Positions 12,976-50,517 of a stretch of DNA of 64,000 nucleotides are shown piece by piece (the stretch's first letter is position 1; every line of letters begins with the position of its first letter). Under the pieces are notes generated by a model that did no database searches, was not told the origin of the DNA, and was given only the letters and a program-made list of their open reading frames with translations. Location of the stretch: NCBI RefSeq assembly GCF_020783335.1, contig NZ_CP086068.1, forward strand, positions 248,001-312,000, in the 5' to 3' direction. Source of the DNA: Mucilaginibacter daejeonensis (GTDB lineage Bacteria; Bacteroidota; Bacteroidia; Sphingobacteriales; Sphingobacteriaceae). Both the position numbers and the translations under genes were made by a program.

Positions 12976-13043
12976 AGTAGCAGGTACGAAGTAGCAAGTA
13001 GCAGGACCTCGGTCTTGATACGAGATACTAACTACTTGATACC
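12976..13043 (+). repeat. GTATCAAG-type hairpin element R1 in the tRNA-Ala/23S spacer
   Basis: The left side has AGTAGCAAGTAGCAG and the right arm at 13012-13042 (starting GTCTTGATAC, ending ACTACTTGATAC) is the reverse complement, at 28 of 31 positions, of the arm at 49155-49185 before the four-helix-bundle gene. It contains no gene and probably folds within the rRNA precursor. Confidence 0.75.
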
Positions 13044-13094: not shown

Positions 13095-15976
<2,882 letters not shown>

Positions 15977-16068
15977 AATAACAGATAAGGTGGTGAGATC
16001 TTTCCGGTCTCACCACCGAACTCAAAAACACAAATAGTACTGTAATCTGATCTCAGTATAATAAGATC

Positions 16069-16100: not shown

Positions 16101-16168
16101 AGTAACAAGTACATAGTAGCAAGTAACAAGATAAAATGTCTTGATACTTGATACCAGATACTCACTAT
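16101..16168 (+). repeat. GTATCAAG-type hairpin element R2 in the 23S/5S spacer
   Basis: CAAGTAACAAGA at 16120-16131 pairs with TCTTGATACTTG at 16139-16150 at 11 of 12 positions, and the right arm continues GATACCAGATACTCACTA. It has the same architecture as R1 and the metH leader element R3. Confidence 0.7.
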
Positions 16169-16189
16169 CCTAACGAACATTAAGATATT

Positions 16190-45213: not shown

Positions 45214-45328
45214 CGCTTATAGAGAAAGACGGAGGGATTGGACCCTGCGAAGTCTTAGCAACCTGTGCTTACAAGGTGCTACATTCTACTTGAGACCGCC
45301 AACTGACAGGTTTCAAGACGGATAAGCG
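45214..45328 (+). ncRNA. SAM-I (S-box) riboswitch
   Basis: Core elements are visible in order: P1 left arm CGCTTAT (45214-45220), AGACGGAGGGATTGGACCC, GCGAAGTCTTAGCAACC, AAGGTGCTACATTCTAC, the P4 hairpin around ACTGACAGG, and P1 right arm ATAAGCG (45322-45328). It matches the S-box layout that binds S-adenosylmethionine, and it precedes metH. The expression platform is not obvious: no terminator follows, and a repeat element (R3) lies between it and the metH start. Confidence 0.93.
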
Positions 45329-45379: not shown

Positions 45380-45475
45380 AGTATCTGGTATCAAGTATCT
45401 CGTATCAAGAGCATGCGATACTTGAAAGCAACAGTAGTACACTGTCTTGATACTTTATACTAACTACTTGTTACT
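45380..45475 (+). repeat. GTATCAAG-type hairpin element R3 in the metH leader
   Basis: The left arm 45380-45410 and right arm 45445-45475 pair over AGTATCTCGTATCAAGA/TCTTGATACTTTATACT (14 of 17). The first part, TTTAGTATCTGGTATCAAG, matches arm R4 at 17 of 19 positions. The element ends four bases before the metH ATG, so it forms a 5' UTR hairpin. Confidence 0.72.
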
Positions 45476-45478
45476 TCA

Positions 45479-48400
45479 ATGGACATTAGAGAACAATTAC
45501 AGAAACGCATACTGGTGATCGATGGCGCCATGGGTACCATGATACAGCGCTATCAGCTCACCGAAGAGGATTTTAGAGGGGAGCGTTTTAAGGATCACCC
45601 GAGCGATCTGAAAGGGAATAACGACCTGCTCAATATCACTCGCCCGGATGTCATCAAGGCCATCCATGCCGAGTATCTGGATGCCGGTGCTGATATCATC
45701 GAGACGAATACCTTTAGTACCCAGCGCATATCACTGGCCGACTACCATATGGAGGAGCTGGGCTACGAGCTGAGCTTTGAAGGTGCGCGCCTGGCCCGCG
45801 AAGTGGCCGACATCTATACCAAAAAGAACCCGGAAAAACCGCGCTTTGTGGCCGGTGCGGTAGGCCCTACTAACCGTACGTCGTCGCTATCGCCCGATGT
45901 GAACGATCCGGGTTACCGTGCCGTTACTTTTGATGACCTGGCCGAAGCTTATTATGAGCAGATCCGCGGCCTGGTGGATGGCGGCTCACACCTGTTGCTC
46001 ATCGAGACCATTTTTGATACCCTGAACGCCAAAGCAGCATTATTTGCTGCACAACGATATGCCGAAGAAAGCGGCAAGAATCTGCCGATCATGATATCGG
46101 GTACCATTACCGATGCGTCGGGTCGTACCCTTTCAGGCCAAACGGTAGAGGCATTCTGGAACTCGATACGTCATGCCAACCTTTTATCGGTGGGGTTGAA
46201 CTGCGCCTTAGGCGCCCGTGAGATGCGTCCTTATTTGGAGGAACTATCCAACAAAGCTGATGTATATATCTCCGCTTATCCCAACGCAGGATTACCTAAC
46301 GAATTTGGCGCTTATGATGAGACCCCGCATGAAACTGCCCACCAGGTAGATGATTTTATCAAGGCTGGCATCGTGAACATCGTTGGCGGTTGCTGCGGTA
46401 CCACGCCCGATCACATCAAGTGCATTGCCGATAAAGCGGCTAAATACCCACCCCGCCAGTTGCCGGAGGTTGAAAGCTACATGCGCCTGAGTGGCTTGGA
46501 GGCGATCAATATTACGCCGCTTACCAACTTTGTGAACGTGGGCGAGCGTACCAACATAACCGGGTCGCCCAAATTCTCGAAACTGATACTGGCCGAAAAT
46601 TATGAGGAAGCACTTACCGTTGCCCGCCAGCAGGTAGAGGGCGGTGCGCAGGTGATCGATATCAATATGGACGAAGGTATGATCGATTCGGAGGCGGTGA
46701 TGGTCAAGTTCCTGAACCTGGTGGCCTCTGAACCTGATATCGCCAAATTGCCCATCATGGTCGATTCATCTAAATGGACGGTGATCGAGGCCGGGTTAAA
46801 ATGCTTGCAGGGTAAGGGTATCGTTAACTCTATTTCGCTTAAAGAGGGCGAAGAAAAATTTAAGGAACATGCCCGCAAGATCTTAAGCTACGGTGCTGCC
46901 ACCGTGGTGATGGCTTTTGACGAACAAGGCCAGGCCGACAATTACGAACGCCGGATCGAGATCTGCAAGCGCTCTTACGATATACTGGTGAACGAGATCG
47001 GTTTCCCTCCGCAGGATATCATTTTTGACCCTAACATCCTGACCGTGGCTACCGGTCTGGAAGAACATAACAATTATGCGGTAGACTTTATTGAGGCTAC
47101 GCGCTGGATCAAACAGAACCTTCCGCATGCCAAGGTGAGCGGTGGGGTAAGTAATATCTCTTTTTCGTTCCGCGGTAATAACGTGGTACGCGAGGCCATG
47201 CACTCGGCCTTTTTATACCATGCCATCCAAGCCGGTATGGATATGGGCATCGTGAATGCCGGTATGCTGGAGGTTTATGAGGAGATACCAAAAGACCTAC
47301 TCGAAAGGGTAGAGGACGTGCTGCTGAACCGCCGTCCCGATGCTACCGAGCGTTTGGTAGAGTTCGCCGAAACGGTGAAAGCCAAGGGTAAAGAGATCGT
47401 GAAGGATGAGGCCTGGCGTAACGAGCCGGTGCAAAAGCGCCTGTCGCACGCGTTGGTAAAAGGCATCGTTGAATATATCGATTCTGACGTAGAAGAGGCC
47501 CGCCAGCAATATGCGCGCCCGCTCGAGGTGATCGAGGGTCCGCTGATGGACGGCATGAACATCGTGGGCGACCTGTTCGGCGCCGGTAAGATGTTCCTGC
47601 CCCAAGTGGTAAAATCGGCCAGGGTAATGAAAAAGGCGGTAGCTTATTTGCTGCCTTACATTGAGGCCGAAAAAGCAAAGAACGCCACACCTGGCGAACG
47701 CAGCAATGCCGGTAAAGTGTTGTTGGCCACCGTTAAGGGAGATGTGCACGATATTGGTAAGAACATTGTAGGCGTGGTACTGGCCTGTAACAACTTCGAG
47801 ATCATTGACCTTGGCGTGATGGTGCCTGCACAACGCATCATTGAAGAAGCGAAGAAACAAAACGTCGATATCATTGGCCTAAGTGGGCTCATCACTCCAT
47901 CATTAGATGAGATGGTGCATTTTGCCAAGGAGATGGAGCGGGAAGGTTTCACCATGCCGCTGATCGTGGGTGGGGCCACTACCTCGCGCATTCACGCTGC
48001 GGTGAAGATCGCCCCTAATTATTCTGGCGCCGCCATACACGTACTGGATGCCTCGCGCAGTGTGACCGTGTGCAGTGCGCTCATGAACAAAGCCACGCGC
48101 GACGAATACATCAACGGTATCAAGTCCGAATACGAAAAGGCCCGCGAAGCGCATTTGAACAAGCGGTCTGACAAACGTTTCCTGAGCCTCGAAGAAGCAC
48201 GCGCGCTACGCTATCAGATCGACCTCAGCACGGTCGCGCCAAAGCCGACCGTCACCGGAACAAAAGTTTTTGAAGCCTTTCCGTTAAAGGAATTGGTGCC
48301 TTATATCGACTGGACCCCATTCTTTCATACCTGGGAGCTGCGTGGCAGTTACCCCAAGATATTTGATGACAAGAACGTAGGCGTTGAGGCACGTAAGCTG

Positions 48401-49150
48401 TTCGATGATGCACAGGAGATGCTGAACAAAGTGATCAGCGAGAACCTGCTGCAGGCCAATGGGGTGATCGGCTTTTGGCCGGCCAACAGCGTGGGCGACG
48501 ATATTGAACTTTATACCGACGAAAGCCGCACTCAACTGCTTACCCGCATCCACACCTTGCGCCAGCAAGCCGAAAAGGCCAAAGGCGAACCGCACTATGC
48601 TTTGGCCGACTTTATAGCGCCTAAAGAAAGTGGTATTGCCGATCATTTCGGCGGCTTTGCCGTGACCACCGGTTTGGGCTGCGATGAATTGGTAGCCCAG
48701 TACGAGGCCGACCACGACGATTACAATAGCATCATGGTGAAGGCTATTGCCGACCGTTTGGCCGAGGCCTTTGCCGAAAAGATGCACGAACTGGTACGTC
48801 GCCAATACTGGGGTTACGCCCACGATGAGCAACTGAGCAACGAGGAGCTGATCAAAGAGCAATACCAAGGCATTCGCCCGGCACCGGGCTATCCGGCTTG
48901 TCCGGAACATACCGAAAAGGTGACGCTATTTGATTTGTTGAAGGCCGAAGATAACGCACATATGCACCTGACCGAAAGCATGGCCATGTTGCCAACGGCA
49001 TCCGTAAGCGGCTTCTATTTCGCTCACCCGCAGTCGCGCTACTTTGGTTTAGGCAAGATCGGCAAAGATCAGATCGAGGACTACGCCCACCGCAAGAACA
49101 TGTCGGTAGAGACCGTAGAACGCTGGTTAGGACCGAATTTGAATTATTAG
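45479..49150 (+). CDS. metH: Cobalamin-dependent methionine synthase MetH
   Basis: 1223 residues, full length. Domain order: homocysteine-binding barrel (about 1-330) with zinc cysteines Cys242, Cys305 and Cys306 ([10 protein letters not shown] and [10 protein letters not shown]); pterin-binding domain (about 350-620); Cap and B12 domain with DVHDIGKNI, where His757 is the cobalt ligand (E. coli His759); and the C-terminal reactivation domain (about 900-1223). It transfers a methyl group from methyl-tetrahydrofolate to homocysteine. It is controlled by the SAM-I riboswitch upstream and is followed by a repeat-flanked gene and metF. The start is the first ATG after the leader element. Confidence 0.98.
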
Positions 49151-49154
49151 GAAA

Positions 49155-49185
49155 GTAGCAAGTAGTTAGTATCAGGTATCAAGAC
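49155..49185 (+). repeat. Inverted arm R4 before the four-helix-bundle gene
   Basis: A 31-base arm beginning GTAGCAAGTAG and ending GTATCAAGAC. Its reverse complement is found at 28 of 31 positions in rRNA-spacer element R1. It forms an inverted pair (25 of 29) with arm R5 at 49528-49556. It begins 4 bases after the metH stop and ends exactly at the ATG of the next gene. Confidence 0.8.
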
Positions 49186-49539
49186 ATGCATAATTTCAAG
49201 GAACTTAAAGTTTGGAAGGCTGGAATAGAGGTAAGTAAGATCGTATTCGAGCTAACCCGGAACTTTCCGACCGACGAACGCTTTGGCTTGATATCGCAAA
49301 TGACACGGGCCGCGGTCTCGATACCATCCAATATCGCCGAAGGTTGTGGAAGACGTTCAGCTAAAGAGTTCTCTCAATTTCTGTCAGTTTCGTTAGGTTC
49401 TGCGTTCGAATTGGAGACTCACATCATCCTTGCTAAAGAATTTAATTACATCTCCGATGGGCAGCTTTTAAGCCTTACAAGTAAGATCACAGAAGTCCAA
49501 AAAATGTTAAGTGGCTTGCAGAAGAATCTTGCTACTTGA
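49186..49539 (+). CDS. Four-helix-bundle protein (23S rRNA intervening-sequence/S23 family)
   Basis: 117 residues. FKELKVWKAGIEVSKIVFELT, GLISQMTRAAVSIPSNIAEG and FLSVSLGSAFELETHIILA mark the IVS (S23/TIGR02436) family of four-helix bundles, best known from intervening sequences inserted into 23S rRNA genes and related to Avd. Its cellular role is unclear; it is thought to bind nucleic acid or a partner protein. The last residues (LAT and the stop) are encoded by repeat arm R5, so the gene and its inverted arms form one unit. It is in the same direction as metH and metF and probably transcribed with them. Confidence 0.9.
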   Translation: MHNFKELKVWKAGIEVSKIVFELTRNFPTDERFGLISQMTRAAVSIPSNIAEGCGRRSAKEFSQFLSVSLGSAFELETHIILAKEFNYISDGQLLSLTSKITEVQKMLSGLQKNLAT

Positions 49540-49556
49540 TACTAAATACTTGATAC
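49528..49556 (+). repeat. Inverted arm R5 at the end of the four-helix-bundle gene
   Basis: The 29-base arm (CTTGCTACTTGATAC then TAAATACTTGATAC) is the reverse complement of R4 at 25 of 29 positions. It overlaps the end of the four-helix-bundle coding region and ends 4 bases before the metF ATG. Confidence 0.8.
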
Positions 49557-49560
49557 TAAC

Positions 49561-50517
49561 ATGAAGATCACTCAACATATAGCCAACGCTAACGGCAAGA
49601 CCTTATTTTCTTTTGAATTGCTTCCGCCGATGAAGGGGCAGAGCATGGATGGCATCTACAAAGCGATCGATCCGCTGATGGAGTTCAAGCCGCCGTTCAT
49701 TGATGTGACCTCCTCACGCGAGGACCTTTTTTACAAAGAATTACCCAACGGCAATATTCAGAAAGCCACGTACCGCAAACGCCCGGGAACCGTGGCGGTA
49801 TGCGCGGCCATCAAGCATAAGTACAATGTAGATACCGTGCCGCACCTGATCTGCGGTGGTTTTACCAAGGAAGAAACGGAGTATGCGCTTATCGACCTGC
49901 AATTTTTAGGCATCGATAACGTGCTGGTGTTGCGCGGCGATGCCCGTAAGACCGACCCCGGTTTCATCCCTACCCCAGGTGGTCACTGCTATGCTACCGA
50001 ACTGTTGGAGCAGGTGGTGAACATGAATAACGGCATCTACCTGCACGAATATCAGGATTCTTCCTACAAGACCGATTTTTGCGTGGGCGTGGCCGCGTAT
50101 CCCGAAAAGCACTTTGAAGCCCCCAACCTGAAAAGCGACTTCAAGTACCTCAAACAAAAGATCGATGGCGGCGCCGATTTTATCGTGACCCAAATGTTCT
50201 TCGACGTGAGTAAGTACAAGCAATTCGTTAACCTTTGCCGCGAGAACGATATTAACGTACCCATCATACCCGGACTCAAACCGATCACCACGGCCAAGCA
50301 GCTGATCAACCTGCCCAAGATCTTCCACATCGATATACCCGAGGATCTTTGCGATGCGGTGAATGCCTGCAAAGACGACAAACAAGTAAAAGAAGTAGGC
50401 ATCGAGTGGATGGTCAACCAGTGCAAAGAGCTGGTGGACTTTGGCGTACCCGTACTACACTTTTATACCATGGGCAACCCTGAACCTACCAAAAGAATAG
50501 CACAAGCCATATTTTAA
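49561..50517 (+). CDS. metF: 5,10-methylenetetrahydrofolate reductase MetF
   Basis: 318 residues, the normal length of a bacterial MetF barrel. FSFELLPPMKG at the N-terminus, FIDVTSSREDLFYKELPNG, NVLVLRGDARK (FAD/folate site), and GGADFIVTQMFFD are family blocks. It makes the methyl-tetrahydrofolate used by MetH and sits in the same riboswitch-controlled operon, separated from metH only by the inverted-repeat cassette. The ATG follows arm R5 after four bases. Confidence 0.96.
   Translation: MKITQHIANANGKTLFSFELLPPMKGQSMDGIYKAIDPLMEFKPPFIDVTSSREDLFYKELPNGNIQKATYRKRPGTVAVCAAIKHKYNVDTVPHLICGGFTKEETEYALIDLQFLGIDNVLVLRGDARKTDPGFIPTPGGHCYATELLEQVVNMNNGIYLHEYQDSSYKTDFCVGVAAYPEKHFEAPNLKSDFKYLKQKIDGGADFIVTQMFFDVSKYKQFVNLCRENDINVPIIPGLKPITTAKQLINLPKIFHIDIPEDLCDAVNACKDDKQVKEVGIEWMVNQCKELVDFGVPVLHFYTMGNPEPTKRIAQAIF

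Follow-up and report, generated by a model that had tools for sequence, protein, structure and literature searches.

The window, the 64-kb stretch of DNA that was analyzed, lies in the 4.81-Mb genome of Mucilaginibacter daejeonensis (G000:C1:248001-312000) and carries a methionine operon on its forward strand. The operon starts with a SAM riboswitch at 45214..45328 (RF00162, 64.1 bits), followed by the open reading frames metH (45479..49150) and metF (49561..50517), the latter with relatives in 59 of the 61 genomes of the genus. As the original prediction had stated, the spacer between the metH stop at 49150 and the metF ATG at 49561 (49151-49560) is made up entirely of an arm, an intact S23/IVP gene and an inverted arm, with 3 nt of spare sequence per side. 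The arms, at 49154-49184 and 49527-49557, are complementary at 27 of 31 positions (87%); the predicted length of 31 nt held for the left arm, and the right arm, given there as 29 nt, also measured 31 nt. The left arm ends 1 nt upstream of the ATG of the S23 gene (49186..49539, forward strand), which encodes a four-helix-bundle protein of 117 aa, occupies the hairpin loop and is codirectional with metH and metF. Its last codons and stop are overlapped by the right arm, which ends 3 nt short of the metF ATG.

Both arms are built from arrays of the degenerate heptamer GTATCAA, a feature that the first reading of this locus had missed and that recurs at most S23 genes examined. The left arm consists of four inward-reading heptamers (GTAGCAA GTAGTTA GTATCAG GTATCAA; period-7 identity 0.71), and the right arm of inverted heptamers of the TTGATAC type, including the direct repeat TACTTGATACTAA with copies at 49533 and 49547. 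With a score of 50, the cassette was the top inverted repeat of the window, ahead of six others scoring 30-37; Markov-shuffled windows yielded 0-1 repeats scoring at least 30. A further inverted repeat of the window, CCCGTCATGCCGAACTTGTTTCGGCATCCC ... GATGCCGATATTCATCGGCATGACGGG at 422-677, is unrelated and lacks a 7-nt period.

In profile searches the cassette protein matched the whole of PF05635 (131.7 bits, cut-off 33.8, model positions 1-106 of 106) as well as TIGR02436 (123.3 bits, cut-off 24) and is thus a member of the S23/IVP family. Related solved structures are PDB 2rld and 2gsc, the second of which is the Xanthomonas S23 protein. A homopentameric form is described for the Xanthomonas relative (PMC4990558). 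The profile searches (PF05635, TIGR02436 and others) assigned the protein to S23 only and found no transposase domain in it; weak, distant matches to bAvd (E=8.5e-6) and Avd (E=8.5e-5) stayed under the cut-off. No mobility-type catalytic motif was found in S23, and we know of none for this family. A search of phage records for S23 relatives found none. The dN of S23 was 0.13-0.31 with saturated dS, for which reason ratios are not quotable, and the gene is under purifying selection. Three S23 copies at the met site are broken (genomes G019, G021, and G032), as expected if the element comes and goes.

The geometry of the cassette matches that of the intervening sequences that RNase III excises from rRNA (PMC4990558). 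By analogy, the arms might pair in the mRNA and the stem be cut by RNase III so that the metH and metF messages separate, with S23 as a passive or barely expressed cargo that spreads by rare recombination. The arms are indeed paired in the predicted fold of the spacer, but the fold energy of the whole spacer was unremarkable (z=-1.5), and the purifying selection on S23 argues that the protein matters. Together with the evidence from the repeat words given below, this makes the cargo explanation unlikely.

The arms were compared at about 100 S23 loci from 61 Mucilaginibacter genomes, of which 98 loci were testable. Inverted arms scored above the best of 50 shuffles at 93 of the 98 loci and more than 3 points above it at 90, mostly with a period of 7. 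Base identity in the 90 armed loci was 0.63 at lag 7 and 0.60 at lag 14, compared to about 0.25 at most other lags, and the median arm length was 32 nt, that is, 4 to 5 units. The repeat words included GTATCAA, GTTCATA, GTCCATA, AGAGATT, AAAGCTG, AAAGGTT, AAAGTTG, TACGTTT, GTTGCGG, AGAATCA, TATGAGA, and ATTGCGT; by reading, one S23 clade had an 8-nt unit (AGTCCGAA) and one clade member a 9-nt unit (AGTCAGTAA).

The repeat word is specific to the S23 clade. Word similarity tracked S23 protein similarity (Mantel r=0.51; the largest value in 2000 permutations was 0.12), and the relation persisted when pairs at different sites alone were considered (r=0.40, reached by 0 of 2000 permutations). This tracking across sites is not expected of a passive cargo. 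The left and right arms of the same locus matched each other with a score of 41.3, versus 29.0 for arms swapped between loci of the same type (fixed windows; 0 of 5000 within-type permutations reached the own-locus value), which indicates that both arms of a locus change together.

Several arrangements of the arms and elements were observed besides. At the GTTCATA-type loci L116, L109, L103, and L002, the right arm appears to give the next gene its start codon, with predicted N-termini such as MNHEPST.. and MNHELLSMN.., so an arm can turn coding. Paired S23 elements were present in one gene cluster at L102 (G021:C1:632812-637753) and at L136 (G051:C306:18746-22851), and the double cluster of G021 adjoins argG.

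Among 99 S23 loci with readable flanks, 91 were codirectional with both neighbors, 8 were mixed, and none was directed against both. The S23 gene starts at a median of 51 nt downstream of the preceding stop, and the following gene starts at a median of 42 nt past the S23 stop; this orientation and spacing fit S23 being expressed solely from the host transcript. The strict placement between genes and the operon orientation would also suit an RNA cargo excised by RNase III. In total, 97 loci were distributed over about 31 sites, with metH-metF used 19 times. The sites often lie within core operons, and the flanks of the other copies are mostly metabolic genes. Named by recognizing the flanking proteins, the sites are presumably metH-metF, argC-argD, nitrilase-agmatine deiminase, sdhA-sdhB, and purK-purE, and further ones adjoin what we take to be argG, purN, and miaB.

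The recurrence of core metabolic sites, the purifying selection on S23 and the covariation of protein and repeat are all features of a host regulatory module, in which S23 would bind mRNA hairpins and tune the methionine, arginine, purine, and sdh operons, and in which the repeat type would drift with a vertically inherited protein as binding sites drift with their regulator. The turnover at single sites speaks against such a module. When the metH-metF spacers of 30 Mucilaginibacter genomes were mapped onto a metF tree, at least nine state changes were required between a GTATCAA-type S23, a GTTGCGG-type S23, a third type, and no S23. The sister species G030 and G024 carry GTTGCGG-type versus GTATCAA-type S23 at this site, G013 and G031 (metF 92.7% identical) have S23 versus none, and the sister pair G019 and G041 differs likewise. 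Relics were also found: in G007 the remains of a GTATCAA right arm lie beside a GTTGCGG element, and in G053 nothing but such right-arm remains is kept. At sdhA-sdhB, G013 has an S23 gene with TATGAGA arms, and G031, whose flanking proteins are 100% identical, has another repeat hairpin and a right-arm remnant, ATAACTCAAATCTAA. S23 genes with the same word, 80-86% identical, were present in unrelated operons. With types gained, lost or swapped between sister species at one site and the same type serving unrelated operons, we give the regulatory module a low probability.

The same unit is found at different sites and is present or absent in close relatives, the combination by which mobile elements are recognized, and this sequence evidence supports mobility of the cassette family. 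Sister species differ, which is not the uniform presence with ordinary divergence that would have spoken against the original prediction, and the cassette varies at a fixed site as a whole in presence and type, in favor of the proposal that gene and arms are one unit. The variation expected among relatives was therefore observed, but the clean empty site expected with it was not: none was found to the base among the compared spacers, as the arms fill the spacer and the S23-free spacers mostly hold other inverted repeats in their place. Target-site duplications were not found either, and no shared flank duplication was seen. The inverted repeats in S23-free metH-metF spacers were of the form CCCCC..CCCCCTAAAGGGGGA / TCCCCCTTTAGGGGG at L018, L023, L024, L026, and L029-L032; the spacers of L015, L020, L025, and L034 carry the inverted repeat CGTCATTGCGAGG..GCAATC / GATTGC..CCTCGCAATGACG, and the families are sometimes nested.

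Repeat hairpins also occur on their own, without a gene in the loop. In the window, pattern matches combined with reading located three of them (an automatic scan misses weaker ones): a GTATCAA-type hairpin in the metH leader between the SAM riboswitch and the metH ATG at 45380..45475 (arms 45380-45410 and 45445-45475), a heptamer hairpin in the rRNA spacer between the second tRNA and 23S at 12976..13043 (arms about 12976-13007 and 13012-13043; fold z=-2.7), and one between 23S and 5S at 16101..16170 (arms about 16101-16131 and 16139-16170; fold z=-3.8). Three more stand-alone GTATCAA hairpins were found at other sites of the same genome. The stand-alone arms always read inward as GTATCAA, and the loops, of 15-154 nt, differ in each copy as judged by eye. 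The metH-leader hairpin has a paired-repeat counterpart with different words in most of 19 relatives. In the 23S-5S spacer, where the comparison had the correct orientation for about half of the loci, the hairpin of relatives was of another type or absent; that of G046 (L215) is of the AAGGTCA type, and it is missing from G036 (L218), the sole genome without any S23. Hairpins in rRNA spacers would again be compatible with an RNA cargo; the stand-alone hairpins between convergent and divergent genes, which were present too, do not suit the regulation of operon messages.

The stand-alone hairpins are associated with their cognate S23. Of the 19 genomes with window-type S23, 18 had exact GTATCAA repeat pairs, versus 14 of the 42 without it (p=5e-6), and at least four copies were present in 17 of 19 versus 7 of 42 (p=8e-8); these p-values are optimistic, as related genomes were treated as independent, and the reversed-pattern control matches the GTTCATA/GTCCATA type and gives no clean null. 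It had been held against the original prediction in advance if arms occurred genome-wide without association with S23 genes. This objection holds by half: arms without S23 do exist, but their occurrence is associated with the cognate gene. An exception is G022 (6.8 Mb, 40 contigs), with 122 exact GTATCAA pairs and no GTATCAA-armed gene among its eight S23 genes; its hairpins are either a relic population or served by another factor. G036, too, has a few hairpins.

The persistence of hairpins without cognate S23 in G022 and G036, their dispersed intergenic positions and their high copy number in some genomes are what conventional non-autonomous palindromes of a REP or MITE-like kind would show, if they were moved by an unrelated transposase from elsewhere with S23 as an occasional cargo. 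Such palindromes would be expected to share a loop sequence, and none was seen by eye; the repeat type follows the S23 clade, and the account would need a transposase whose target code shifts along with S23 across four phyla, which is less easily explained. We regard this origin as very unlikely.

G046 offers a natural test of the link between gene and hairpins. The S23 at its metH-metF site shares 64% identity with its counterpart in the window, and GTAGTAA, GTAAAAA, and GTACTTA replace GTATCAA as arm words. Stand-alone hairpins elsewhere in G046, including the orthologous one in the metH leader, carry the same altered words, with a word cosine to the S23 arms of 0.89, compared to at most 0.06 for the hairpins of other genomes. 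Hairpins at unlinked sites have therefore changed in step with the arms of S23, a pattern that comes from one genome and that neither a passive cargo nor neutral repeat dynamics would predict.

Outside the genus, S23 was present in 116 of 148 Bacteroidota genomes. Significant inverted arms were found at 74 of 101 S23 loci of this phylum (the period was 7 at 67 of them and 8 at 6), and 27 failed. On plasmids, all 18 S23 loci had inverted arms, in Cyanobacteria (15 of the sample), Alphaproteobacteria (Azospirillum, 7-nt units), Gemmatimonadota (Gemmatirosa, 8-nt units), and Flavobacteriia (Riemerella), the last three with one locus each. Cyanobacterial arm heptamers were, for example, GTAGGGA, AACAGGG, AAAAGCT, and AGTCAGG. 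The pairing of S23 gene and repeat is present in four bacterial phyla, and an S23 cassette outside rRNA, described as new in the original prediction, is neither rare nor unique and belongs to a widespread family.

A polymerase-related bias was proposed for bacterial heptamers (PMC4692102); in a neutral account, slippage would yield 7-nt repeats and strand switching quasi-palindromes, with S23 present by chance. Arms were present at 92 of 119 S23 loci versus 13 of 162 neighbor genes of the same records (Fisher 1e-34, with loci that are not independent), and particular S23 clades have 8- or 9-nt units. Chance placement is on these grounds highly improbable.

Armed S23 genes were also seen between cas6 and cas4 or cmr2 and cmr3 in Pseudanabaena (L363), Anabaena (L378), and Picosynechococcus (L383), the arms of L383 having an 8-nt and not a 7-nt period. 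S23 genes in cas loci have been reported (PMC3936711). These cases are more simply read as insertions of this element between the genes of an operon than as a CRISPR function.

Taken together, we lean toward S23 being the trans-acting partner of short-repeat hairpins, with gene-bearing and gene-free hairpins of each type forming one system. It would be a widespread element with the S23 gene inside a hairpin loop and with arms of inverted short-repeat arrays, usually of 7 nt, whose gene would be expressed off the host operon transcript. The protein, a pentamer in a solved relative, may recognize the repeat hairpin as RNA or as single-stranded DNA, and by analogy with RAYT proteins and REP palindromes, the cognate S23 may assist the spread or the rewriting of hairpins at the junctions between genes. 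In the met transcript, the predicted fold makes it plausible that the arms pair and leave the gene in a loop, after the manner of the intervening sequences of rRNA, and cleavage or excision of the paired arms by RNase III is a candidate step modeled on the same sequences. Binding, S23-driven mobility, RNA pairing, and cleavage are steps that we infer rather than observe. The copy-specific loops count against this system, being unlike a normal transposed unit, as do the G022 pairs without cognate S23, the hairpins of G036 and the 27 unarmed loci of the phylum.

To our knowledge, S23/IVP proteins have no known function, and bacterial heptameric repeats have been noted repeatedly without a cause. 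In a broader and more tentative form, to which we give slightly less than even weight, S23/IVP proteins of several phyla might be sequence-specific trans-acting factors for hairpins whose repeats are 7-9 nt long. Every clade would read its own word, perhaps with one unit per pentamer subunit, given arms of 4-5 units, and drive both the spread and the concerted rewriting of the hairpins. On this view, the unexplained heptameric repeats of Cyanobacteria, Xanthomonas, and Bacteroidota would have their missing partner in S23, and the intervening sequences of rRNA would be one particular instance of the system. If so, the function of S23 and the origin of heptamer repeats would become a single testable system made up of a small protein and a code of seven letters, with natural variants numbering in the thousands. 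S23 intervening sequences would extend from rRNA into ordinary operons, a REP/RAYT-like system would be added without the known transposase chemistry, and S23 genes in cas operons would find a simpler explanation.

Among known systems, the rRNA intervening sequences of Leptospira and Coxiella resemble the cassette in that an S23/IVP gene lies in the loop of complementary arms, is read with the host transcript and is present sporadically at fixed sites (PMC4990558). Unlike them, the cassette lies between protein genes and not inside 16S or 23S rRNA, and the gene-free hairpins near rRNA genes are in the spacers, outside the rRNA itself; the 23S rRNA of the window (13095-15978) matched its model end to end with no insert. 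Set beside those sequences, the arms of the S23 loci described here are repeat arrays with clade-specific words. With REP/REPIN-RAYT (TnpA-REP) systems the cassettes share inverted repeats around a gene, matching gene-free palindromes dispersed between genes, and a type-specific partnership of gene and repeat. Unlike RAYT, S23 is a four-helix bundle and no Y1/HUH tyrosine transposase, and unlike REP/REPIN, the repeat units are 7-9 nt long and the loops are unique. MITEs and insertion sequences have a conserved internal sequence or a transposase, together with a target-site duplication; here each hairpin has its own loop, the gene carried is S23 only, and no shared flank duplication was seen. 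Avd/bAvd of diversity-generating retroelements is a distant homologue of S23, but neither a reverse transcriptase nor a template/variable repeat adjoins the cassette.

Heptameric repeats have been described as the STRR of Calothrix, GGGAATC of Xanthomonas, with 70-75 convergent pairs per genome, and GGGGATT of Nostoc (PMC4692102), and as TAACTGA in Beggiatoaceae, Cyanobacteria, and Bacteroidetes (PMC4679880). The arrays described here are likewise intergenic 7-nt tandem repeats, and several cyanobacterial S23 arms are similar G-rich heptamers. No partner gene was named in the published accounts found, with S23 absent from PMC4679880 and PMC4692102, and searches of the open-access literature for heptamer repeats and for S23 genes located outside rRNA found no description of repeat-armed S23 genes. 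Located outside rRNA and without a Y1/HUH transposase, the cassettes fall fully under neither definition; their nearest known counterparts are rRNA intervening sequences by family and geometry and REP/RAYT by behavior.
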